A stretch of DNA of 24,279 bases from a virus, in IMG/VR virus record IMGVR_UViG_3300035698_015778, positions 1-24,279 of that record. One strand, written 5' to 3'. Position numbers and translations under genes: made by a program. Positions 4,066-22,984 of the stretch are shown here, in pieces (within the stretch, counting starts at the first letter, position 1; each line of letters opens with the position of its first letter). The notes under the pieces were generated by a model that saw only the letters and a list, made by a program, of their open reading frames with translations, searched no databases and had not been told where the DNA came from.

Positions 4066-4704
4066 ATGGACAGACGAGTAGTAAAAGTATTGACCTCTAC
4101 AGGAGCAGCGGTTAATCAAAACCTCGGTTTCGTACCTCACAAGGTAGTAACCCGTAACCTCACGAAGTGGGGATCTACAAGCGAAGTTATCCGTTGCGGC
4201 TATAGTGCAGCAATGGACGACGCTTCATACCTTTCTGAAGCTAACCAGGCGAGCTTAACTGACGGTATCCTTACCGCTCTTGAGACAACAAACGGTTTCA
4301 CTCCGTACGACACCACGGTGCGTGCTGAGCGTCAGAAGATCATCAGTGGAGCAACTGCGGCAAATCCTTGTGTTATCACAATGACAAGCCACGGATTCAC
4401 AGCGGCAGCCAACGACGGCGACACCCTTGCTATCAACCTCATGGGTTCCGATAGTATGGTAGAGCTTAATGGCAACCGCTACACGATGACGTATGTCAAT
4501 GCCAACAGTGTGAGCATTGACGTTGATTCAACCAACTTCACGGCATACAGCTCTACGCTTAATGCTGGTATTGGCATGAATACGACAACGGCATCCGACG
4601 ATACAGGCTACAAGGGTATTACCATAGGCACCGGCCCAATGGCAAACTCTTCGGACCTTATCGAAGTGACAGCAGAGTGGTTTGATAGCTACGAAGAAGT
4701 ATAG
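4066..4704 (+). CDS. Virion protein with HGF/GD module, possible head decoration
   Basis: This 212-aa protein of unknown exact role directly follows the capsid gene and precedes a terminator, so it should be made in the same amount as capsid protein. Residues 1-85 form a unique domain, which would be the part that attaches to the capsid if it is a decoration protein. Residues 92-166 form a beta-rich module: ATAANPCVITMTSHGF, then a Gly-Asp turn, MVELNGNRYT, and a final strand. Automatic annotation often labels this module 'E1 FCCH-like' in phage proteins. The same module occurs in the genes at 20039 and 23641. The start has a strong AAGGAG at 4052-4057. A decoration or accessory head role is inferred from position only. 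Confidence 0.6.
   Translation: MDRRVVKVLTSTGAAVNQNLGFVPHKVVTRNLTKWGSTSEVIRCGYSAAMDDASYLSEANQASLTDGILTALETTNGFTPYDTTVRAERQKIISGATAANPCVITMTSHGFTAAANDGDTLAINLMGSDSMVELNGNRYTMTYVNANSVSIDVDSTNFTAYSSTLNAGIGMNTTTASDDTGYKGITIGTGPMANSSDLIEVTAEWFDSYEEV
4339..4563 (+). repeat. HGF/GD module, copy 1
   Basis: Residues 92-166 of the 212-aa virion protein. Landmarks are ANPCVITMTSHGF, GDTLAI, ELNGNRYTMTYV and NSVSIDVDSTNF. Confidence 0.7.
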
Positions 4705-8785: not shown

Positions 8786-9282
8786 CCGTCCCATTGACAA
8801 AAGTTTTTCCTACTGGTCAAAGCGAGCTTAATCAAGCCCTTGTAGAAGAGCATAGCGAACTTGCTAACGCTATCAATGGAAGCCAGGCATCATACGATCC
8901 ATATATCGAAGGTACTGATCCTTTGAATAAGGGAACATATACCTCGCAGTTAGGGAACTATTTCAAGAAGGGTCTGATCACTGACGTATGGTTTACGGTG
9001 ACATGGTCGGCACATGCTGACGCTGGCACGGCTATGAAGGTGAGCCTTCCCCAGAAAGTCAAGGGAACCTCAGATATACAGTGGATAGGCTCAGTTATGG
9101 CCGATGGCATTGCATACACGGCTGGTGCTCACCTCGTTCTACGTGGAATAAAGGACACCTTCTTTGCTGAGGTCGTCGCATGTACTAACGGTGGCGCTGT
9201 CGGTAATGTTGTGATATCGGGTACGGGGACTCTGGCAGGGAATATACGGTATATAGGGCAAGCTGACAGGGTGAAGGCATGA
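8782..9282 (+). CDS. Small fibre-tip-like virion protein
   Basis: This 166-aa protein has the sequence TYTSQLGNYFKKG (about residues 52-64). A strand with a GTAMKVSLP-like end (about 82-90) follows, which is the 'TYt-x-Q-x-GxY-x-(K/R)-x-G ... v-x-LP' motif found at the tips of many phage fibres and in stand-alone virion proteins. The C-terminus alternates strands (VVISGTGTLAGNIRYIG). The start is coupled to the nozzle gene and its stop to the GNAT gene, both as ATGA overlaps. It may sit on the nozzle as a receptor-binding or tail-completion piece. No catalytic motif is visible. Confidence 0.62.
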   Translation: MTVPLTKVFPTGQSELNQALVEEHSELANAINGSQASYDPYIEGTDPLNKGTYTSQLGNYFKKGLITDVWFTVTWSAHADAGTAMKVSLPQKVKGTSDIQWIGSVMADGIAYTAGAHLVLRGIKDTFFAEVVACTNGGAVGNVVISGTGTLAGNIRYIGQADRVKA

Positions 9283-9686
9283 GATTTTTACGATGTACTA
9301 ATCCTGAGTTTATACCAAGAACGTTACTTAAACAACTACCTAACAAGGACTTCGATGCGGACTCATTTTATACGTTTATGGGAGTTGCTTTACAAAGCCC
9401 TACGAGCCTTCTTTTTCTACTCATAGACGAAAAGAACGTTATTAGGGGCTTTCTGTGGGCAGAAATCAACGTACTTGAACAGGTGATGTTCGTTAACCTT
9501 CTCAGCGTTGATAAGGAATTATGGGGCAACGGCAGTGCGATAGACCTCGCCACCGATTTTTTAAAGAAACGTTTTGTAGAGTTAAGCTTAAAGAAAGTAG
9601 TATGGATTACAGATCGGCCCGCACTCTTCGAGCGCAAAGGATTTAAACAAGCAAAAGAAGTACTACTTGAGTACACAGGAGAATAA
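9279..9686 (+). CDS. GNAT-fold acetyltransferase-like protein
   Basis: This 135-aa protein has the order of a GNAT domain. A strand-turn-strand at about 44-64 (LLFLLIDEKNVIRGFLWAEI) comes first. Then VMFVNLLSVDKELWGNGSA has the Q/R-x-x-G-x-G/A-like acetyl-CoA loop (WGNGSA at about 82-87), followed by helix IDLATDFLKKRF. A late strand and helix follow (KKVVWITDRPALFERKGFK, the usual 'F-x(3)-GF' end). The canonical first Arg/Gln is replaced by Leu, so activity is uncertain. It would transfer acetyl to a protein or small-molecule amine. Related stand-alone GNAT genes occur in the late operons of P22-like and other podoviruses. It is translationally coupled at both ends. Confidence 0.75.
   Translation: MRFLRCTNPEFIPRTLLKQLPNKDFDADSFYTFMGVALQSPTSLLFLLIDEKNVIRGFLWAEINVLEQVMFVNLLSVDKELWGNGSAIDLATDFLKKRFVELSLKKVVWITDRPALFERKGFKQAKEVLLEYTGE
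9677..9681 (+). promoter_or_regulatory. Ribosome binding site that sets the 9688 start
   Basis: AGGAG lies 6 bp before the ATG at 9688, which begins 1 bp after the GNAT stop. An upstream in-frame TTG at 9667 has no ribosome site and would overlap the GNAT gene, so 9688 is preferred. Confidence 0.85.
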
Positions 9687-9687
9687 T

Positions 9688-10200
9688 ATGGGTGGCACGA
9701 AAGGTGGAATAGAACAGGTAAGCGCATTAACTCCAGAGCAACAGAGTCTCTTTACTAAACTGATGGCTGACTTTGATCCTACAGAGCTTACGGATATGTT
9801 TAAGAGTTCCGTAGCAGACCCAGCGCGGCAACAGTTTCAACAGAAGACACTCCCGGGAATTCAAGAGCGTTTTATAGCTGGCGGTGGCGCTGGTAGCGGT
9901 GCTCTTAACCGTGCAGCTGTAGGCGCTGGAGCAGACCTAGAGAGCGGCCTCAGTGGACAGCTGGCACAACTCCTAGCACAGGCCCAACAGGGCACATTAA
10001 GCCGTCAGGCTGGTCTTGCTGTTTCTCCTACACAGGAGACATTTCAGCAACTAAGTGACAACCCTATGCTTAAGTTTCTTACCCCTCTCCTCACGGGAGC
10101 AGGCACGGCGATCGGCGGGCCTCTTGGAACAGCAGGAGGAGCAGCCCTCGGAAATATGCTTACTGGTAAGAATCAACAAACTCCTGCCACAAAGGTATAA
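9688..10200 (+). CDS. Small internal or ejection protein candidate with Gly zipper
   Basis: This 170-aa protein (from the ATG at 9688) has an N-terminal helix (LTPEQQSLFTKLMADFD). It then carries DPARQQFQQKTLPGIQERFIAG followed by GAGSGALNRAAVGAGADLE, a pattern seen in small podoviral virion proteins near portals. The C-terminal 35 residues (PLLTGAGTAIGGPLG, then TAGGAALGNML) form a glycine zipper able to insert in membranes. Position beside the portal and the zipper suggest an ejected protein comparable in role to the small P22 E-proteins. No sequence homology to gp7 is claimed. Low hydrophobicity outside the tail argues against an inner-membrane resident such as a holin. Confidence 0.55.
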   Translation: MGGTKGGIEQVSALTPEQQSLFTKLMADFDPTELTDMFKSSVADPARQQFQQKTLPGIQERFIAGGGAGSGALNRAAVGAGADLESGLSGQLAQLLAQAQQGTLSRQAGLAVSPTQETFQQLSDNPMLKFLTPLLTGAGTAIGGPLGTAGGAALGNMLTGKNQQTPATKV

Positions 10201-10202
10201 CA

Positions 10203-12281
10203 ATGCTAAAAGAACACGAGATTCTTTCATCGTTCGGTGAGAGGTATAGCCAGGGCTTTGAGAAGCTACAGTCTTTCTATGAAGAGTCTCGTACTGATAT
10301 CGAGTTCTACCTGGGAAAGCAGTATACGTCAGCAGAAGAGCAGTATCTCCTTGAGAACAACAGAGAGATCATAACGAATAACAAGATTCGTCGTGCTGTT
10401 AATCTCATAACAGGAGAGCAGCGCCTAAACCGTATGGCCTCCATGGTCTTAGCTGTCCATGATGATCTGCCAGAGCAGCGCGAGACAGCAGATCAGTATA
10501 GCGACATTATTCAGACGGTCTTACAGAAGTACCAGGGATACTACCACATATCTGACTGCTTCCATGGCTCGATCATATCGGGGATAAACTTTAGTGAGAT
10601 GTATTTTGACTACTCGAATGACTTCGATGATGGCGATATCAAGTTTCAGCGGATACCATATAACGCCATGGTATGGGACCCATACTTCCAAAACTTCGAC
10701 TTGAGCGACTGTAACTACATCTTGCGAAGGAAGTACATATCAGCTACTACAGCGGTAGGTTTGCTTCCTGATAGAGCGAAGGAGATCAAGAAGCTTGTGC
10801 CTAGGAAGCAAGACGGAAAGTTCCCACAGATACCGTTTGCTTCAAACCCTAATGGGCAACCTCTCTTGATGTATGATGAGTTTTGGGAGAGAGACACTCG
10901 CGACACCTTCTACATGGTAAACCGTAAGGACAATACCCGTGTCGAGTTCAAAAATGACACCAAGAAGGCCGATGCCGAGGCCTTCATAAATGATATGAAT
11001 AGGTTCGCCCAGAATGAGATGGTCAAGCTCGTTGTGAAGCCGAAGGCCACTGTAAACCTCTACAGCATGATAGAGGGAGAGGTTTTCTACCACGGAAGAG
11101 ATCCTAATGGTATCGATGAGTATCCTTTCACTCCATTTATAGCAACTCACACACCCGAGTATGACGATGATAGTATAAGCTTGCAGTCTTTTATACGCCC
11201 AGCTAGAGATCCTCAGAAGGAGTTGAACAAGAGGATATCAAAGACCCTCGATATCATGGATAGCCGCATGTACGGTGGTCACTATGCGAAACTCAGCAAG
11301 CTTGTAGATCAGGACGACCTCTATAACAATACCAACAGTGGTAACATAGGTCTTACTGATGACGCTGTCATAGGACAGGACATCGCTCCTATACAACTCC
11401 CTGACGTGCCATCTTCGTTGTTTCAGATGGCGAACGTTTTTGATGAGAACGTCATGAGTACTCTCAATCTCAATGACTCAGCTTTTGGAGCGGCAGCATC
11501 AAGCAATACGTCAGCATTACAGACGATGGTACAGCAATCCTCTGCCATGATGGGTATACAGCCAACGTATGACAACCTAAACCGTAGCCAGAATATCCTG
11601 ACGTGTAAGCTCATGAAGATGATACAGACGTGGAGCGACAAGAAGATCGAGAAGATATCCAAGAAACCTCCGACAGCACTCTTCAGGGACAAGGACTTTA
11701 CGAAGTGGGAGGTAGTATGCTCACAGGGTGTACTCACAGAGCACCAAAAGAAGATGCAGTTTGCCCAGCTCGTAGAGCTTAAGAGCATGGGAGTCGAAGA
11801 GATAACGGGCCTTATGCTTCTCAAGAGGGCACCTATCCAAGACAAGTCATCGTTCCTCAAAGAAATCGAAGAGAACCAGAAGGCACAGGCCGAGCAACAG
11901 CAGAAGATTGAAGAGAAAATGGCCGTTCAAGAAGAGTTGGCGATGAAGCTCGCAAATGCGAAGGTGATAAGTGATCTGTCACTAGCCGAAGAGAGGAAGG
12001 CCAGAGCTAAGGCGGACGTAGGTCTCTTAATAGAAAGGACTTCGGAAAGCGTGCAGAACCAGAGTCAAGCAGTCCTTAACCAAGTAAAGGCCGCTAGTGA
12101 GATACAAGGGATGCGTCAAGATCAAGCTATGAGTGCTATAGATTTTGTACTTGCTTTGCAAGAGAGGGCTTCTGGCGAGGAGATTCAAAAAGAAGTAATG
12201 AGTACGGCCATTGCAGAGACGGCAAATGAAACACCGACACCTCAGCAGCAGCCTCAGCAACAACAATTAGCAACCGTATAG
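10203..12281 (+). CDS. Portal protein, P22 gp1-like
   Basis: This 692-aa protein should form the dodecameric ring at the packaging vertex. The N-terminal 100 residues (FEKLQSFYEESRTDIEFYLG, then NREIITNNKIRRAVNLITGE) show the P22-type portal opening. Clip and wing segments follow. FSEMYFDYSNDFDDGDIKFQ and IPYNAMVWDPYF match the 'i-x(4)-P-x-D/N-v-x-wDP' portal element. After SFIRPARDPQKELNKRISKT comes a helix-rich core. Residues about 550-675 are predicted long helices (ENQKAQAEQQQKIEEKMA), which would build the barrel that reaches into the head in P22. The end is Gln-rich (PQQQPQQQQ). An AAAGG ribosome site is 8 bp upstream. Its place after tail genes and far from the terminase is unusual. 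Confidence 0.9.
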   Translation: MLKEHEILSSFGERYSQGFEKLQSFYEESRTDIEFYLGKQYTSAEEQYLLENNREIITNNKIRRAVNLITGEQRLNRMASMVLAVHDDLPEQRETADQYSDIIQTVLQKYQGYYHISDCFHGSIISGINFSEMYFDYSNDFDDGDIKFQRIPYNAMVWDPYFQNFDLSDCNYILRRKYISATTAVGLLPDRAKEIKKLVPRKQDGKFPQIPFASNPNGQPLLMYDEFWERDTRDTFYMVNRKDNTRVEFKNDTKKADAEAFINDMNRFAQNEMVKLVVKPKATVNLYSMIEGEVFYHGRDPNGIDEYPFTPFIATHTPEYDDDSISLQSFIRPARDPQKELNKRISKTLDIMDSRMYGGHYAKLSKLVDQDDLYNNTNSGNIGLTDDAVIGQDIAPIQLPDVPSSLFQMANVFDENVMSTLNLNDSAFGAAASSNTSALQTMVQQSSAMMGIQPTYDNLNRSQNILTCKLMKMIQTWSDKKIEKISKKPPTALFRDKDFTKWEVVCSQGVLTEHQKKMQFAQLVELKSMGVEEITGLMLLKRAPIQDKSSFLKEIEENQKAQAEQQQKIEEKMAVQEELAMKLANAKVISDLSLAEERKARAKADVGLLIERTSESVQNQSQAVLNQVKAASEIQGMRQDQAMSAIDFVLALQERASGEEIQKEVMSTAIAETANETPTPQQQPQQQQLATV

Positions 12282-12290
12282 GAGCCTACT

Positions 12291-12938
12291 ATGGTAATAC
12301 AGCAACTCCAACCAGATCCCTCAGCATGGAGCCAGATCCTTGGCAGCCTAGGCGGTGGCTTAGGTCAGAGTTTCGGCACAGGAGTCCAACAGGGTACAGA
12401 AAGCAGCGTGCTCAACCAGATTATGCAGCAGCATGACGTTAACAAAGACCCTATGGGCTTTATAAACGCTCTTATCAGTGCCCCAGGAGTGTCACAGCAG
12501 ACGAAGCAGAATTATATCAGTGCCTCAACTGTAGCGTCGAATCTAAATAAAGCACCACTAGCTCTCAATAAAGAGATCCGCCTCGAAACAGACGCAATGA
12601 AAAAAGACTACACTCGTGCGGTTAAAGATGTAGCAGAGCTACATAAGAATATTGGTGGCATAAAATCTAAAGATGTCAAAGAGATAACAGGCCGCTTACG
12701 CGCTGAACAAGCACTGAATGAGAAGAACATTATAGCTGGAAAGCCATTTGTGGAAGATGCATTTCAGGAATATCTCGCCTTATTCACTGGAGACCCTAAG
12801 AGTCTAGCAACAGAAAGAGGAAAACCTAAGTACGACCCTAATAACCAAGAACACCGAGTCGCATACGAAAAGGCGAAGCAGCAGGCAAACGGTGACACTA
12901 ATGAGATAAACAGAATACTAGGGGAGATGTTTAGCTAA
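12291..12938 (+). CDS. Internal virion or ejection protein candidate
   Basis: This 215-aa protein is not assigned to a known family. It has a Gly-rich start (SLGGGLGQSFGTGVQQG at about 19-35), then helices, one long and charged (LALNKEIRLETDAMKKDYTRAV). It sits between the portal and the giant internal protein. Its ribosome site AGGAG (12280-12284) overlaps the portal stop codon, and its own stop overlaps the next ATG by one base (TAATG). By analogy with podoviruses, whose second ejection protein is encoded here, it may be one of the head-internal proteins. No membrane segment or enzyme motif is visible, so this is a context-based guess. Confidence 0.5.
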   Translation: MVIQQLQPDPSAWSQILGSLGGGLGQSFGTGVQQGTESSVLNQIMQQHDVNKDPMGFINALISAPGVSQQTKQNYISASTVASNLNKAPLALNKEIRLETDAMKKDYTRAVKDVAELHKNIGGIKSKDVKEITGRLRAEQALNEKNIIAGKPFVEDAFQEYLALFTGDPKSLATERGKPKYDPNNQEHRVAYEKAKQQANGDTNEINRILGEMFS

Positions 12939-15900
12939 TGCGAGACTTTCACTCTCTAACAGAACAGGCGTCGCAACGAGATTTTGTTTCAGAAACAGAA
13001 CAAGCGCCTTTAGTTCCTCCTGTTAGTGAGGTGGTGCCTTGGGGACATACGAAGAAAACGGTTCCAGGTGGTTCGGCACAGTTTTCTTCTCCTGAAGCAG
13101 ATAGTGAAACTCGTGACTTTACCGCTATCACAGAGAACAACAATAAATTAAGTGTCTGGGATAGATACTCTGCTGGCCTTGAATCGAGTACCTCGGGACT
13201 GCTTAAAGATGCGATATCAGGAAAGCTTAGTAAATCGGAGACATTAAAGCTAGCAGAGGAAGACCCTGGATTTTGGGAAGGCGTTATCCTCACAGGAGGA
13301 GAGCTTACGGGAGACTTCCCATATTTTGCTGCGGGGGCTACGATTGGATCAACAGTGGGCGCTCCTATAGGGGCTCTTGTTGGCTCTGCTGTTCCTGTTG
13401 CTGGAACTGCTTTCGGGGCAACTGTTGGATCAACATTAGGTGGTGGTGCTGGCGCATTCGCATTTAACACCTTCTTAAAGAGTACACTTAGCGAGTATCG
13501 AGACTATGCATTAAAGGGAAATGACATCACCTTTGGTGAGTTTTTGCAGCGTTCCGATAAGGTTGCTAGCGATACTCTTAAATCAGGCCTTAGTGGTGCG
13601 TTATTAGAGATGCTATCAGCGGCTATGCCAATTCTAGGAAAAACGAAGCTCTTCAAGAACCTTTTCAGCACAAAGATAGGAACAAAGGCTATAGAGCTTA
13701 CAGCGGAGACCGCTGCTTTGACTGCACTGCCGTCTTTGTCTGAGGGCCGCCTTCCTACAACAGAAGACCTTAAAGGGGCATTACAAACAGTCACAGCATT
13801 CCAACTCATAAAGGCAATACCTTCTATTAGCGGAACGATACGAGAGACGTTTAGCGAGGAGCGTGCCAAAAAGACTTTAGAGGTTCTTGATGCCATAAAG
13901 AAAGAACGCCCAGAAGATCTCACTCCCGAGCGTATCGATGAGATAAACGTTGAAGTACAGAACGAACTTGTAAAGCAAAAGTCAGCAGTAGCAAAAGAGG
14001 TGATTAAAGAATCGGAAGCCGTTGTAATCCGCAAAGTCAAGACTCTTGCTAATGAGAAAGAATCAAAGAAGAAGGACGCAGAAAAAGACCTCGAAAAGGT
14101 CTTATCAAAGCGTATTGTCATAGAAGAGAAGGGAGAAAAGAAAGCCGAGAATCTATCAGAAGACTTTGAAGCCGCCATAAAAACGCTAGAGAATACGCAT
14201 CAGAAGAGTATAGAGAACTCCGAAGAAGCGATAAAACAAAGGACAGAGAAAGAGACAAAGGCTTCAGAGAAAGAGCGACGTACCATAGACAATAAGGGCA
14301 ACGATAAAATCGACACGATAGAGAGCAACGCTGACGTTGAAAAGGCCCGTATCTTAGAAAACGATAAGGATAGGCTACAGCGAGAAAAAGAGCGCCTTGA
14401 TAAAAAACGTACCGTTGAAGAAAACAAAGTTGATCGTGAGCAGAAGAGAGCAGAAAAGCCTACGAAAGGTCGTCAAAAAGAGGCTAAAAGCAAGCTCATA
14501 AGGGATGTTTTAGCCAAAAAGCTAAAGAAGATCAAAGAAGAGTTTGATGCAAAAAAAGCTGCCATCAGAGAAGAATATAGGAAAGAAGAGGAGAGCGCCC
14601 TCGAACGTCATAACGAACGTGTCGCTGAAAAGTATTCAAAGATTGATGATGCAGATAAACTTAAAAAAGAACGTGTTGAAAAGCAGCGAGAATCCTATAA
14701 GAGAAAAAACGAAGAAGCCCTCAACAAAGCTACTGATAAAATACGGAAAGAGGAACTTGCGAAGCTTGAAAAGCGATATGATGCATCACAGGACAAACTT
14801 GCCAAGAAGTACTTCGCTAGGGAGAAAGAACTTACTGCATCCGAGAAGGACTCCATACGTAGCCTTGAGAAGGAGATTAAGAAGTCAAGAGCTGCGCTAG
14901 ATAAGATCGAGACGGACTTTAACCGTGAAGTATTGAAAACAAAGTCAAAGGAACAGCAGCGTCTATACGACAAATGGCTCAAAGAGAAGCAGAAGATAGA
15001 ATCACGCCGTCAGTCAATATTTGATAGGATCTCTAAGCGTCGATCTATTGAAAAGCAAATATCTATCGGTGAGAAGGGTGTTGAGAAGACGAAGACCGCC
15101 CAAGAGAAATTACGTGAAGTACACTCTGCTATTGTTAACGAGTTATCTCCTATAGAACGTTTCGTTGATACGTTCCTTCCAAAGGACTCACCTATATCAA
15201 AGAACGCATATAAGCTCTATCGCCTTACTCGTGGATTCATAGGAAAAGCAGAAACATTCTTGGAGCATAAAACCTTTGATCCTATAACGTTTAAGTTTAA
15301 GAACAAGGGCCTTGGAAAGATAATACAGCCAATAAAACATGAGCTTGAATCCTTCAGTAAGTACCTCGCTTCAGAACGTGTTATTGAGCTACATGAGAGA
15401 GGCATTGAAACGGGAGTAGACACAAAAAGTGCTCGCGATAACATAGCAAAGAATAGGAAGAAGTTCCAGAAGTACAAACGTGAGATAGATCGCTACCAGT
15501 CGGATCTCCTAGACTATGCACAATCAGCAGGGCTTATCTCTCCTCAGTTAAGAGGCGTCTTTGAAGAACTTAATAGAGACTATGTCCCCTTTCAACGTGT
15601 TATTGACGGAAAAACGGTATCTATAGGTGGTAAAAATTTAACCCCTAAGAACGAATTTTATAAGATAGAGGGTTCACAACGAAAGATCATAGACCCACTA
15701 GAGTCGATAGTAAGGAATACCTATCTAATAACACGTTCAGCTGATCTTAACATCGCTACGAAAGCCCTTGTTGATATGGTCGAGGCAAAAAGAGATTTCT
15801 GGGAAAGTCTTGGGATAAAGAAAGAAGGCATTAAAGAAGAGACTGCCGACAACCTTATAGACTTTATGAATATCTCAGCTGAAAACGAAGGCCAGATAAG

Positions 15901-17542
15901 CTACTTCGATAATGGCGTTAAGAAGACATATACGATACCGAAGGACGTTGCTGAAGCTATAAATGGCATAAGCTCTTCTGGTATGGACATTATAACAAAG
16001 ATAGCTGGCATCCCTGCAAAGTTTGTGAGAGCGACATCAGTAGGCGCGAACATTAACTTCTTTATAAAGTCGCTATTATTTAGAGATCAAAAAGAAGCTC
16101 TCTTCTACTCGAAGAATAATTTCATACCTTACTGGGACATGGCGAAGGGTATGTATGAAGTCTTTGGGAATAGGGAGATGTATTACAAGTTTAAGGCAGC
16201 AGGTGGAGACCAAAACATCTATAAAGGGATATCTCGCGAGGCTCATCAACAGACGATAGAGCGAATATCGAAACAAGGTAAGCATGATACGACGTTTTCA
16301 AGTTGGGGCGCTTTTGTTCAGAGCATTAAGGAGTCACCAGAAATAGCACACAAGCTTGAAAAGGCAACGCGTGTCGGTGACTTTGCGAAAGGGATAAGGC
16401 GCGAGGGGATGAGTAGAGAGACGCTATTAAAGAAGGCACTAGAGGCGCGTGAGATCACGATTGACTTTGCTGTTAAGGGAAGCAAGACTAATGCATATAA
16501 CTACGCGGTACCCTTCCTTAACGCTCATATCCAAGGGGTCAATAAGTTTTATAGCGAGTTCAAGCAAAATCCTGCTAAGGCTTCTCTTAAAGCCCTTTCC
16601 AATACGACATTACCAGCTCTTGCCTTATGGTATATAAACAAAGATAACGAAGCATATCAAGAGCTTCCGGACAGAGAGAAGGACTACTACTGGCATGTTT
16701 ATATTGGTAAAAAGCATTATCGTATCGCAAAATCATATGAGTTAGATGTTGTTTTTGGGACTCTTGCAGAACGCATCGCTCAGGGAATCTATAATGAGAA
16801 TCCCAAAGAGATCGAAAAGGCTTTAAGCGCTCTTTGGGCTATCACAGTGCCGCCAATAGTACCCGCAGCAGCGGCACCATTCATAGAAACTTTTGCGAAT
16901 AAGAGTCTCTTCTTTGGAACACCTATCGTAAAACCGAATCTTGAGAATCTTCCTCCTGAGCTTCAACAGACCGCGTATACTACGGGAACAGCCAAGGCAC
17001 TAGGAAAAGCAATATCAAAGATCCCTTATATTGGTGAGACGGGGGTTGCTTCTCCCGTAAGAATAGAACACTGGTTGACGGCGTGGACAGGAGATTATGG
17101 AAGGGCTCTTCTAGATTTATCCGATAGGTTTCTACAAAAAACGGGGATCATCCCGGAGAACATCGCCCCTGAAAAAGGGCCTGGAAATACGAACATCCTC
17201 AAAGCCTTTATGGGAAATGAGAAGTCAGGGACGGCATCTCAGTCAATAGCAACATTCTACGACAATGCTTCATCTATAGAGACGTACTACAAGGGCGTTA
17301 AAGAGAAGAGAAAGCGCGGAGAAGACGCTGATTATGACAAGTACAGCTACTCCGATTATACAAGGTCACAGAACGTGCGAAAGGCATTCTCAAGAGCTTT
17401 TAATACGATGAATAATATCCGTATGAATGATGAATTGACGGCATCAGAAAAGCGCATACAGATAGACGCTATTGCTGATGACATGGTCGTCGTAGCACGA
17501 GAGTTCAACAAAGAGCTAAAAGAAGATATGAAAGATCGATAA
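12938..17542 (+). CDS. Giant ejection protein: Gly zipper, coiled coil, LPD38
   Basis: This 1534-aa protein is probably stored in the head and ejected with the DNA. Domains in order: a low-complexity N-terminus with two adjacent RDFxSxTEQA motifs (2-11 and 14-23) and a third RDFTAITEN (59-67). A Gly/Ala zipper (about 129-178, FAAGATIGSTVGAPIGALVG) can span membrane. A long Lys/Glu-rich coiled coil covers about 310-730. An LPD38-like part spans about 755-1400: SIVRNTYLITRSADLNIATKA, IKSLLFRDQKEALFYSKNNF, ATRVGDFAKGIRREG and VPFLNAHIQG, then TLPALALWYINKD and GTPIVKP. A charged C-terminal tail follows. The start is coupled to the previous gene, with GGGGAG upstream. No polymerase, lysozyme or protease motif is seen. 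The LPD38 assignment is from remembered family landmarks; its biochemical role is unknown. Confidence 0.8.
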   Translation: MRDFHSLTEQASQRDFVSETEQAPLVPPVSEVVPWGHTKKTVPGGSAQFSSPEADSETRDFTAITENNNKLSVWDRYSAGLESSTSGLLKDAISGKLSKSETLKLAEEDPGFWEGVILTGGELTGDFPYFAAGATIGSTVGAPIGALVGSAVPVAGTAFGATVGSTLGGGAGAFAFNTFLKSTLSEYRDYALKGNDITFGEFLQRSDKVASDTLKSGLSGALLEMLSAAMPILGKTKLFKNLFSTKIGTKAIELTAETAALTALPSLSEGRLPTTEDLKGALQTVTAFQLIKAIPSISGTIRETFSEERAKKTLEVLDAIKKERPEDLTPERIDEINVEVQNELVKQKSAVAKEVIKESEAVVIRKVKTLANEKESKKKDAEKDLEKVLSKRIVIEEKGEKKAENLSEDFEAAIKTLENTHQKSIENSEEAIKQRTEKETKASEKERRTIDNKGNDKIDTIESNADVEKARILENDKDRLQREKERLDKKRTVEENKVDREQKRAEKPTKGRQKEAKSKLIRDVLAKKLKKIKEEFDAKKAAIREEYRKEEESALERHNERVAEKYSKIDDADKLKKERVEKQRESYKRKNEEALNKATDKIRKEELAKLEKRYDASQDKLAKKYFAREKELTASEKDSIRSLEKEIKKSRAALDKIETDFNREVLKTKSKEQQRLYDKWLKEKQKIESRRQSIFDRISKRRSIEKQISIGEKGVEKTKTAQEKLREVHSAIVNELSPIERFVDTFLPKDSPISKNAYKLYRLTRGFIGKAETFLEHKTFDPITFKFKNKGLGKIIQPIKHELESFSKYLASERVIELHERGIETGVDTKSARDNIAKNRKKFQKYKREIDRYQSDLLDYAQSAGLISPQLRGVFEELNRDYVPFQRVIDGKTVSIGGKNLTPKNEFYKIEGSQRKIIDPLESIVRNTYLITRSADLNIATKALVDMVEAKRDFWESLGIKKEGIKEETADNLIDFMNISAENEGQISYFDNGVKKTYTIPKDVAEAINGISSSGMDIITKIAGIPAKFVRATSVGANINFFIKSLLFRDQKEALFYSKNNFIPYWDMAKGMYEVFGNREMYYKFKAAGGDQNIYKGISREAHQQTIERISKQGKHDTTFSSWGAFVQSIKESPEIAHKLEKATRVGDFAKGIRREGMSRETLLKKALEAREITIDFAVKGSKTNAYNYAVPFLNAHIQGVNKFYSEFKQNPAKASLKALSNTTLPALALWYINKDNEAYQELPDREKDYYWHVYIGKKHYRIAKSYELDVVFGTLAERIAQGIYNENPKEIEKALSALWAITVPPIVPAAAAPFIETFANKSLFFGTPIVKPNLENLPPELQQTAYTTGTAKALGKAISKIPYIGETGVASPVRIEHWLTAWTGDYGRALLDLSDRFLQKTGIIPENIAPEKGPGNTNILKAFMGNEKSGTASQSIATFYDNASSIETYYKGVKEKRKRGEDADYDKYSYSDYTRSQNVRKAFSRAFNTMNNIRMNDELTASEKRIQIDAIADDMVVVAREFNKELKEDMKDR

Positions 17543-19837: not shown

Positions 19838-19870
19838 CTTTTTTAGCAGTTGGTTACTCGATATGCTAAA

Positions 19871-19879
19871 TTTATATCA
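19871..19879 (-). promoter_or_regulatory. Extended -10 promoter for the minus-strand gene
   Basis: Read on the minus strand, TGATATAAA fits the extended -10 form TGnTATAAT in all but the last base. A weak -35-like TTGATG lies 15 bp upstream of the TATAAA. Transcription would start around 19863, about 35 bases before the gene start. The fit is to a host sigma-70-type promoter. Confidence 0.55.
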
Positions 19880-19935
19880 CCCTCTCTTTTTCATCAAACT
19901 TTTTTCTTAAGTGCGCCCTTTGTTCGCCTTTTCTG

Positions 19936-19964
19936 TTGTGACAAATCCAAATTAGGAATATATA
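19936..19964 (+). promoter_or_regulatory. Possible promoter of the second fibre cassette
   Basis: TTGTGA (19936-19941) and TATATA (19959-19964) are separated by 17 bp, the ideal spacing, with 4 of 6 consensus bases in each box. It lies in a roughly 209-bp intergenic region that would be a divergent promoter pair with the minus-strand gene. It sits about 75 bp before the ATG at 20039. Confidence 0.45.
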
Positions 19965-20026
19965 GAGGGCAGCTTAACGAAATTTCCGCCCTAATCGGCG
20001 TGTCCCTCTACGAGGAGCCCTTACAA

Positions 20027-20032
20027 AAGGAG
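20027..20032 (+). promoter_or_regulatory. Ribosome binding site that sets the 20039 start
   Basis: AAGGAG with 6-bp spacing precedes ATG 20039. A longer reading that begins at 19850 would include an untypical hydrophobic/cysteine stretch, run through the promoter region and lack a ribosome site, so 20039 is preferred. Confidence 0.85.
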
Positions 20033-20038
20033 TATGTT

Positions 20039-20590
20039 ATGGCTAGATCGTACCGCCCTATTCAAGTGAGAGACGCCCAAGGCGCTCTTATTCAACTTGA
20101 TGAGAAAGACCTCAACATGACCACGAGTCGTGCTGGAACCCCCAATATCCGCTTCGTCGGATACAGCCGTCCAGGCATCCTTACTACAGAGCCAGCTTGG
20201 AAGATCAAGAAATACACATACGATGACTCTAATACTGTCGTTCGTGTACGTACAGCTACAACAAACGACCTCGCTGACAATAACAAGATATGGGATGACG
20301 TTGCCGCTGTGACGATTTCTTCGGTAACAAAGGCAACTCCTGGTGTAGTAACGACGGCAGCAGCCCATGGATACACTACTGGTGATAGCATAGAGATTAC
20401 TGGCTGCGACATGACGGAACTCAATGGCGATGGTTTTGGAGATGTTATCTTCACAATTGTAAAGACTGGCGCTGATACCTTCACGCTTAAAGATGTTGAT
20501 GGCGATGCTCTTGACACCTCTGGATATGTTTCTGCTGGAACTACAGGGTCGGCATGGAAGAGAGATTACTTGAACTTGGTCTACGCCTAA
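20039..20590 (+). CDS. Small virion protein with WKI-type and HGF/GD modules
   Basis: This 183-aa protein has a first half (residues 36-92: IRFVGYSRPGILTTEPAWKI, then YDDSN ... IWDDVA) that fits a small virion-protein pattern. The landmarks are 'vGyaxPG...aWqIkkixyd...vWddra', seen ahead of fibre genes in several phages. The second half (94-171) is the HGF/GD module: VTKATPGVVTTAAAHGYTTG, then TELNGDGFGDVIFTIVKTG, then DTFTLKDVDG. It is related to the modules in the genes at 4066 and 23641. A short trailing strand (AWKRDYLNLVYA) ends the protein. It heads the second fibre cassette and could be its base or attachment piece. No enzymatic motif is seen. Confidence 0.68.
   Translation: MARSYRPIQVRDAQGALIQLDEKDLNMTTSRAGTPNIRFVGYSRPGILTTEPAWKIKKYTYDDSNTVVRVRTATTNDLADNNKIWDDVAAVTISSVTKATPGVVTTAAAHGYTTGDSIEITGCDMTELNGDGFGDVIFTIVKTGADTFTLKDVDGDALDTSGYVSAGTTGSAWKRDYLNLVYA
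20318..20551 (+). repeat. HGF/GD module, copy 2
   Basis: Residues 94-171 of the 183-aa virion protein. Landmarks are ATPGVVTTAAAHGY, TGDSIEITG, MTELNGDGF and ADTFTLKDVDG. Confidence 0.75.
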
Positions 20591-20614: not shown

Positions 20615-22984
20615 ATGGCATTTAAGATTAATTCTTTCACGGGAAGAATGGATAACGTTGGCGTTCCTTCTATTAACCAGACGCGTGTTCCTGCGGGAAC
20701 TGACTACAAGTATCCTCTTGGTCAACAGTGGGTCGATACCGATGGCGGAGGAGTTTACTTCCTTGCTAGCGTTACGGCTATGGTTGCGACCTGGGAGAAG
20801 GTAATAGGCGGTTCTACGGGCCTTTCTCAGCTTACGGCTGATAGTGGGAGCGCAAGCCCTGCTGCTGGAGCGATTACGATTGCAGGAGGAACAGCCCTTA
20901 CTACGACGGGCGCCGGCTCAACAATCACGATAAACGCTACAGATGCTACTACTCTTCAAAAAGGTGTCGCAAAGTTTCTAGCGGCTGATTTTTCAACGGC
21001 TGCGGGTGAAGTCTCTCTTGATGATGATGTCATTAAAGGAGTAACTACCGATGCTGGGATTATACCAGGTATAGGTCATGGAATATCAATAGTGGGTGGC
21101 GAGGGCATAGACACCTCTGGTGCAGGGGCTACCGTTACGGTTACAGGTGAGGATGCCAGCGCCACGAACAAGGGGATCGCAAGCTTCGATGCTTACGACT
21201 TCAGCGTGACCACTGGGGCTGTCTCATTGCGTCCTGGCTCCGCTGTATATTTCGTAGGAAAGTGGGGAAACGACGCCGCTGACGGCCTTACCTTCAGCAG
21301 TGCAAAGCTAACGGTACAAGCTGCTGTCACGGCTGCACCAGCAGGCTCAACTATACTTGTCTATCCTGGGACGTATACTGAAACTGTTACAATGACTGCC
21401 AACAATGTTATTATGCACGGTATGGGTAAGCCACCAAACGTGATAATAGAGCAAGCTGATGCTAACGTAATCGACTTCAATACAAGATCAAACATTGTGA
21501 TAAGCAGTATTCAAATTCGCGTTACGGCTGCTACAACAGCTATAGCAACTATCACTGGAACTACTGGAAGTTGTAAGCTAAGAGACGGCGTTGTAAGAAT
21601 GACGACAACGGCAAATATTGCTGCTGCTGCCCAACCCTCTTGTGCAAATGTTACCAGTACAGGTACGTTATTTTTGAGATTCTCTCAATTTCATTATACG
21701 AATAGTGGCAATGGTGGAGGGACAGCGAATAAGTCTGCCTTTAGAGTTAGTGCTGGAGGCACAGTAGACTTAAAGCTTGCTTGTTGCAGCACGGTAACTA
21801 CTTCTGGAACTGATTTAGTCTCGTCAATAGCAACCGATGCTGACACTACAGGTGTAGTGAAGATGGATAATTGTGATGTCACTATGGTTTGTGGTGGGAC
21901 TATTGCTGCTGCTCTAGCCTATCTTGGCGGAACAGGTATCACGCACCATTTTGGGTATAACAAGATCGAACTCGATGCTACTGGTTGTACCAATGCCTAT
22001 GGATTTTTTGCTGCTGATGCCGCATCGAAGACATACCTATTTTTCAACCATATCCATGTTACAGGAGCTACAAACAATTATGGCTATATCATCGGAGCAG
22101 CCTCAGAGTTAGTCTCACATTTCAACGATATTGTTGCTGCAAATGGTGTATCTGTTGCTGGAACAGCACACGAAGTAGACAGTCTTGCAGATGGTTATCT
22201 CACAGTAACACACTCCGTATATGCAGAAACCTTCGACACGAACATCGCTGCTGCTGGTGTCACGCTGACAGGGACTACGCTTGCCGCCGACGGGACTGAT
22301 GCTAACATACCTATAACTATCACTCCAAAGGGTGGCGAGGCGGTAACAATCGATGGCCTAGACTATCCTATGGCTGACGGTGCTGCTGGTACGGCTGTAG
22401 TTACTGATGGTGGTGGTGTCCTTTCTCTGGGCGTTGTTGGCGTTGCTGGTGGTGGATCAGGGGTCGCTACATTAACCGATGGTGGTATTTTACTTGGTTC
22501 TGGTGTTGGTGCTATAACAGCTACTGCACAGCCTACAAATGGTCAACTACTTATAGGCTCTACAGGGAACGACCCTGTGCTTGCGGCGCTGACGCCTGGT
22601 GACGGGATAAGCGTAACGAATGCAGCAGGGGGAGTCACTCTGGCGACAACTGGCGGTGGAATAGCATGGACGGTCGCGACAGGTACAACAGCAGCCGCTG
22701 TTAACAACGCATACATCTGCAACAACGCCGGAACGCGCGTCGTCGTGACACTGCCAGACACCGCAGCGGTAGGATCTGTAGTTGAGATAGTTGGAATGGG
22801 TGCGGCTGGGTGGCGACTTGCCTGTAACGCAGGAGAAACCATCCTCATTGGCGACTCCGCAGCAACTACAACCACAGGGTCTCTTGCCTCTACTGATACA
22901 GGAGACTGTGTAAGGCTTGTGTGCATTTTGGCTGACACAGATTGGAGGACAACATCCTCGTGGGGGAACCTGACCGTAGCTTAA
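20615..22984 (+). CDS. Tailspike-like fibre with parallel beta-helix
   Basis: This 789-aa fibre/spike shares its N-terminal attachment-type domain (residues about 23-62: PAGTDYKYPLGQQWVDT, then VATWEKV) with the 609-aa fibre. Two duplicated linker modules lie at about 87-135 and 157-205. At about 209-260 YFVGKWGNDAADGLTFSSAK, then VYPGTYTE, marks the entry of a right-handed parallel beta-helix, as in polysaccharide-degrading spikes, which continues to about 500. Fibre modules (GGGSGVATLTDGGILLGSG, then NGQLLIGS) follow at about 610-680. A C-terminal domain (683-789, WTVATGTTAAAVNNAYICNN ... TTSSWGNLTV) resembles a widespread phage fibre tip. The AGGAG is at 20604-20608. Catalytic residues cannot be pinned down by eye. 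Confidence 0.82.
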   Translation: MAFKINSFTGRMDNVGVPSINQTRVPAGTDYKYPLGQQWVDTDGGGVYFLASVTAMVATWEKVIGGSTGLSQLTADSGSASPAAGAITIAGGTALTTTGAGSTITINATDATTLQKGVAKFLAADFSTAAGEVSLDDDVIKGVTTDAGIIPGIGHGISIVGGEGIDTSGAGATVTVTGEDASATNKGIASFDAYDFSVTTGAVSLRPGSAVYFVGKWGNDAADGLTFSSAKLTVQAAVTAAPAGSTILVYPGTYTETVTMTANNVIMHGMGKPPNVIIEQADANVIDFNTRSNIVISSIQIRVTAATTAIATITGTTGSCKLRDGVVRMTTTANIAAAAQPSCANVTSTGTLFLRFSQFHYTNSGNGGGTANKSAFRVSAGGTVDLKLACCSTVTTSGTDLVSSIATDADTTGVVKMDNCDVTMVCGGTIAAALAYLGGTGITHHFGYNKIELDATGCTNAYGFFAADAASKTYLFFNHIHVTGATNNYGYIIGAASELVSHFNDIVAANGVSVAGTAHEVDSLADGYLTVTHSVYAETFDTNIAAAGVTLTGTTLAADGTDANIPITITPKGGEAVTIDGLDYPMADGAAGTAVVTDGGGVLSLGVVGVAGGGSGVATLTDGGILLGSGVGAITATAQPTNGQLLIGSTGNDPVLAALTPGDGISVTNAAGGVTLATTGGGIAWTVATGTTAAAVNNAYICNNAGTRVVVTLPDTAAVGSVVEIVGMGAAGWRLACNAGETILIGDSAATTTTGSLASTDTGDCVRLVCILADTDWRTTSSWGNLTVA
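20873..21229 (+). repeat. Internal duplication in the beta-helix fibre
   Basis: Residues 87-135 and 157-205 align: ITIAGGTALTTTGAGSTITI with ISIVGGEGIDTSGAGATVTV, then QKGVAKFLAADFSTAAGEVS with NKGIASFDAYDFSVTTGAVS. The two copies are linked by about 20 residues. This is a linker module commonly repeated in fibre shafts. Confidence 0.75.

Follow-up and report, generated by a model that had tools for sequence, protein, structure and literature searches.

The window, by which we mean the whole 24,279-base stretch of an IMG/VR virus fragment analysed here, carries a run of genes arranged as in the internal virion cassettes of podoviruses. A GNAT-like protein (9279..9686, +), likewise found upstream of the ejection genes in relatives, is followed by a small protein at the gp14 position with a C-terminal Gly zipper (9667..10200, +; 177 aa, or 170 aa from the ATG at 9688), which has a 229-aa homologue in contig L198 (E=8e-17) and gave no T7_gp14 match. 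A P22-type portal protein (10203..12281, +; PF16510, E=3e-58) lies between this gene and that of a 215-aa gp15-position protein (12291..12938, +; 261-aa homologue in L198, E=8e-31). Next comes the subject of this report, a 1534-aa LPD38 protein (12938..17542, +), a candidate ejection protein at the position of T7 gp16. Elsewhere in the window, two genes (4066-4704 and 19850-20590) encode a beta-type segment (VxTSAAHGYxxGDxIxI...ELNG) common to each other's homologues and present also in the ~850-aa tail tube B of HTVC034P-type relatives. The 789-aa protein encoded at 20615-22984 matched no family and contains a segment resembling a right-handed beta helix (ILVYPGTYTETVTM...); it is possibly a tail spike.

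The reading frame of the giant protein is intact and uninterrupted. Its full-length relative in L069 (contig's full form L198; IMGVR_UViG_3300035698_005759), encoded at L069:1055-5629, has 1524 aa and is 38% identical across residues 73-1530; the C-terminal module is the closest part (50% identity), ahead of the N-terminal domain (30%) and of the rod that joins the two (26%). This relative begins at the equivalent residue, which supports both the assigned start and a single frame throughout, and the initial annotation was right to treat the locus as encoding one product.

The C-terminal half is the best conserved part of the protein. Pfam LPD38 (PF18857) was matched at aa 1238-1403 (16649..17146, +) with 130 bits (E=1.5e-37) against a curated cut-off of 27 bits, so the LPD38-like C-terminal half proposed initially is confirmed. 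The homologous region is larger than the Pfam model: alignment defines a conserved unit of ~810 residues, aa ~725-1534 (15110..17539, +), of which Pfam LPD38 spans about one fifth, and a profile built from an alignment including the window protein covers aa 725-1534. A tblastn search of phage records returned 50 records, among them Pelagibacter, Vibrio, Bacillus megaterium, Escherichia and Achromobacter phages, the best of which match the C-terminal half only. Viral contigs scanned with one protein at a time, the window module or a Manatee Spring protein, gave no match; degenerate DNA patterns for two conserved motifs recovered more than 100 IMG/VR ORFs bearing the module. Of 113 ORFs in which the end of the module is complete, 108 have no more than 40 aa beyond it (median 6); the clearest cases of a module that is not C-terminal are L117 and L149, with ~715-750 aa more after it. 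An AlphaFold2 model from 71 sequences gave a confident predicted fold (pLDDT 86.3, pTM 0.87). This model matched no PDB entry at E≤0.001 (best E=1.3, an unrelated protein), and a PDB sequence search with the module profile yielded chance matches only; against a viral structure library the model matched many LPD38 proteins (best E=4e-40). Six polar residues of the module are near-invariant (R1049, D1050, E1141, R1145, D1176 and K1265; nt 16082-16733) and could form a buried network or an active site.

We know of no agreed function for LPD38. The domain has been described from phage-type polyvalent proteins only (PMC5512222), so its initial attribution to phage and mobile-element proteins holds for phages and not for mobile elements generally. 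This origin, together with the methylase or other domains N-terminal to the module in relatives, would fit a polyvalent protein sent into the host as an effector, the role proposed for LPD proteins generally. However, Pfam and PHROG scans found no enzyme domain in aa 1-725, and short relatives consist of the hydrophobic domain and the module only. With no enzymatic domain beside LPD38, the window protein falls outside the definition of a polyvalent protein as one with at least two domains of disparate biochemical activity (Iyer et al. 2017), and we regard an effector role as quite improbable.

The first 71 residues (12938..13150, +), whose predicted structure is of low confidence, contain three DFxxxTE-like motifs (MRDFHSLTE, QRDFVSETE and TRDFTAITE). 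Three similar copies occur at L069:1055-1250, and rod-lacking relatives have paired GFSxxEI motifs there instead; the DFxxxxE motifs of the two rod-bearing proteins are possibly a docking or packaging signal. The segment is followed by a hydrophobic helical domain, aa ~72-329 (13151..13924, +), which AlphaFold2 predicted poorly, whose top 19-residue hydropathy (1.47) is borderline for membrane spans, and which has homologues in rod-lacking relatives (L003, E=6e-13; L151, 2e-7; others weaker). A GxxxG run is visible by eye at aa ~133-170 (GxxxGxxxG at aa 133-149), but Pfam Gly-zipper models reached only 11 bits (E~0.4) against cut-offs of 25-28.9; the zipper segment named initially therefore stands as a Gly-zipper-like run, short of Pfam membership and within a domain common to rod-lacking relatives. 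The Gly-rich run also weakly matches a probable tape measure chain (E=0.011) and tail-lysin PHROGs, as a tape measure protein of a long-tailed phage might. The matched region is, however, low-complexity Gly/Ala, and the window combines a P22-type portal and a podovirus gene order with no long-tail tube or assembly genes that we could find, which makes a tape measure hardly credible.

Between the hydrophobic domain and the module lies the rod. AlphaFold2 predicts two helices, aa 330-515 (arm 1, 186 aa; 13925..14482, +) and aa 519-709 (arm 2, 191 aa; 14492..15064, +), with pLDDT mostly 80-90 and a short break after Pro509. The inter-arm break, PTKGRQK (aa 509-515; 14462..14482, +), has a counterpart in L069, with Pro507 at the matching place. 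When a charged run was defined as one in which KRED make up 40% or more and Gly/Pro 5% or less of every 40-residue window, the window protein had a run of 399 aa (339-737) and L069 one of 360; in the rest of ~140 module-bearing ORFs none was longer than 106, although this rarity is an estimate because many of the other ORFs are cut on their 5' side. The charged helix of about 400 residues postulated in the initial annotation is thus borne out, longer than chance and far above ordinary relatives, and the structure prediction suggested there as a check returned long helices, two rather than one. Its extended length of about 60 nm is right as arithmetic (2 × ~28 nm) but passes over the Pro/Gly break in mid-rod at 509-515. 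Because rod-lacking relatives also have the hydrophobic N-terminal domain, only the rod counts as an insert, and what sets the window and L069 proteins apart from the known LPD38 family is this rod of ~380 residues, present in these two only. No rod-type relative was found in a scan of genome contigs, nor in a search of phage records with the N-terminus and rod of L069. Tandem repeats in the DNA, considered as an origin of the rod, amounted to a single trivial 2-copy array.

Hydrophobic residues recur along the rod with a period of 3.69 in the window protein and 3.68 in L069, coherent across ~400 residues; the power at this period (2.85 and 2.55) exceeds all 500 shuffles in each (maxima 1.52 and 1.49). 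By arm, the periods are 3.66 and 3.69 in the window protein and 3.65 and 3.69 in L069, in agreement with a hendecad (11/3 = 3.67), and the most enriched hydrophobic spacing is i to i+11 (z=3.5 and 4.3). Of the controls, MukB arms peaked at 3.48-3.51 and TolA domain II had no period. A canonical heptad coiled coil (period 3.5) is rejected, the power being 0.12 at 3.50 as against 0.83 at 3.69; the coiled coil originally envisaged is correct as to a long helix and wrong as to its repeat. The two rods share 44 hydrophobic positions where 13 would be expected, with 11 gap columns in 366. We found no report of hendecad coiled coils in phage proteins in paper titles or abstracts.

Basic and acidic residues flank the hydrophobic stripe on opposite sides, and the handedness is the same for each arm and in each virus, a signal that is modest in each arm (|z| 1.6-2.5). 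A class A membrane-surface amphipathic helix, which has basic residues on both flanks, is disfavoured. MukB arms pair antiparallel, and in our control they showed the opposite flank-charge handedness that an antiparallel pair should show. The common handedness in the rod therefore points to parallel neighbours and speaks against an antiparallel hairpin within one molecule; as the per-arm signal is modest and the two viruses are homologous, this is support for parallel assembly and not proof. A hairpin of ~28 nm folded at the Pro/Gly break, which would serve for storage or as a kind of spring and not as an extended bridge, has in its favour the near-equal arms (186 and 191 aa) around a single Pro-containing break that is kept in L069, as well as the fact that a rod of 57 nm would not fit straight in a typical podovirus head. 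Antiparallel pairing would nevertheless bring like charges together, and we consider the hairpin unlikely.

The position of the gene is informative about its role. HTVC034P and ct8d5349 have the order tail tube A, tail tube B, acetyltransferase, internal virion protein B, a 580- or 498-aa protein, LPD38 giant and tail fibre, and the gp14-position gene of ct8d5349 (L003) exceeds the Pfam T7_gp14 cut-off and matches a PHROG for internal virion protein (5e-24). The same arrangement of gene sizes is found in those metagenomic relatives with enough upstream sequence (L064, L108, L139, L152, L157, L170 and L175), and the T7 order is gp14, gp15, gp16, gp17. The window and L198 follow the order of these relatives, the window with a portal gene in addition. 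By gene position in the internal virion cassette, the window protein is a candidate member of the podovirus ejection class. Mass spectrometry of virions of the Burkholderia phage JC1 detected gp67, gp68 and gp69 (PMC9144972), and the C-terminus of gp69 corresponds to the whole module (hhalign 99.9%, E=3e-35). Taken together, the gene order of relatives and the JC1 proteomics indicate that the LPD38 giant holds the gp16 position and that a homologue is a virion protein. An ejection protein, as the initial annotation supposed, is well supported because the giant lies at a gp16-like position in relatives and the JC1 giant and its two neighbours are found in virions; the window protein is probably carried inside a short-tailed particle and enters the bacterium together with the DNA.

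It had also been suggested that this one protein replaces several ejection proteins of other podoviruses. That suggestion finds no support, since a small Gly-rich gene (177 or 229 aa) and a 215- or 261-aa gene still precede the giant in both rod-bearing viruses, ordered as gp14- and gp15-position genes should be, and these two small ejection-gene candidates persist. The most that the giant may have absorbed is a part of the gp15-position protein. Among relatives without a rod, the gp15-position protein measures 498-684 aa and the giant 1160-1320 aa, whereas the rod-bearing pair have gp15-position proteins of 215 and 261 aa and giants of 1534 and 1524 aa; the two lengths sum to 1749 and 1785 with a rod and ~1700-1950 without one. 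On the evidence of these two viruses, length may have passed from the gp15-position protein to the rod, although no homology between rod and gp15-position proteins was seen. The gp15-position proteins of L002, L003 and L064 end alike (PGExxxxYLKRxG-like); the 215-aa window protein lacks such an end and terminates in YDPNNQEH...INRILGEMF, as its L198 homologue does.

We infer that the window protein would be the functional counterpart of T7 gp16, in a podovirus with three ejection (internal virion) proteins of which it is the largest. Its LPD38 module, the conserved core of the protein class, would be packed in the head, and its hydrophobic N-terminal domain would enter the host membrane after ejection. 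The rod may form an extra parallel-assembling helical bundle, right-handed or near-straight, that would lengthen the ejected conduit or tether across the envelope and take over the length that relatives invest in a larger gp15-position protein. We give this reading as a whole (gp16 counterpart, packed module, membrane-inserting N-terminus and parallel rod lengthening a conduit or tether) a probability of roughly 0.55. The length of the rod counts against it: ~57 nm is more than the width of a Gram-negative periplasm.

The main rival reading is an ejection protein whose rod is no periplasmic bridge. With the topology of T7 gp16, the inner membrane would be crossed by the N-terminal domain, and a cytoplasmic rod would hold the module off the membrane or along the entering DNA. 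T7 gp16 has a membrane region I (243-410), a cytoplasmic DNA-binding region (411-1118) and a membrane region II (PMC8954989), onto which the window order of hydrophobic domain, rod and module most hydrophobic near its C-terminus can be mapped. This mapping is by analogy, there being no detectable homology with T7 gp16, and it leaves the small gp15-position protein unexplained; we hold a cytoplasmic rod to be rather unlikely. A bolder form of the envelope-spanning reading is that some podoviruses build a trans-envelope conduit from a parallel hendecad bundle fused to the gp16-position protein, replacing most of the gp15-type tunnel protein. We think this improbable; if true, a hendecad-bundle conduit would be a different architecture for DNA delivery.

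What was already known is the LPD38 family; what is new is the rare, hendecad-type rod that this ejection-type member carries. From the position data and the published proteomics of a homologue, LPD38 gains a concrete, testable role: it would make up the C-terminal core of ejection proteins of the gp16 type, and its fold has yet to be solved. The rod variant amounts to a natural length change in an ejection protein, and a comparison of rod-bearing with rod-lacking relatives could address what spans the envelope in podoviruses.

As compared with T7 gp16 (internal virion protein D), the window giant likewise follows the gp14 and gp15 counterparts and precedes the fibre, and is likewise largely helical with a large C-terminal domain. 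T7 gp15 forms a ~200-Å periplasmic tube and gp16 extends from periplasm to cytoplasm (PMC8954989). No sequence similarity was detected against 47 gp16 sequences (hhalign probability 0.4%), no fold similarity of the module to solved gp16 or core structures appeared at E≤0.001, and neither the module nor the N-terminal domain showed homology to ejection proteins of T7, P22 (gp16/gp20), epsilon15 or N4. We infer from position that the protein works like gp16, and do not claim identity with it. T7 gp16 has no comparable rod known, and the window protein lacks its N-terminal transglycosylase (no SLT match, as against 1.7e-31 for T7 gp16 in the same type of scan); P22-type ejection proteins also lack a transglycosylase (PMC8954989). 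TolA domain II of E. coli, in which a long charged helix likewise links a membrane part with a C-terminal domain, is offered as a works-like comparison only, as it has no hydrophobic period and no homology is claimed.

Among relatives that share the module, JC1 gp69 (DarB-like, LT plus LPD38) is the third of a virion trio in the same order of small, ~500-aa and giant proteins (PMC9144972) but differs in its 4515 aa, its lytic transglycosylase and methylase-helicase regions and the lack of a reported rod. The giants of the Pelagibacter phage HTVC034P (gp44) and of Podoviridae sp. ct8d5349 have the C-terminal module in common with the window protein over ~800 aa (27-29% identity) and lie, as it does, between the gp15-position gene and the tail fibre; ct8d5349 also has a detectably related hydrophobic N-terminal domain. 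Both giants lack the rod, at 1229 and 1280 aa, and accompany gp15-position proteins of 580 or 498 aa as against 215 in the window. L198 and the window are syntenic all the way from the major capsid protein gene to those of the fibres, the one exception being the portal, which in L198 does not separate the gp14- and gp15-position genes; these are adjacent, and no portal is present on the 19-kb contig. With its 261-aa partner, its L069/L198 giant has the same architecture as the window protein and a rod of similar length and period.
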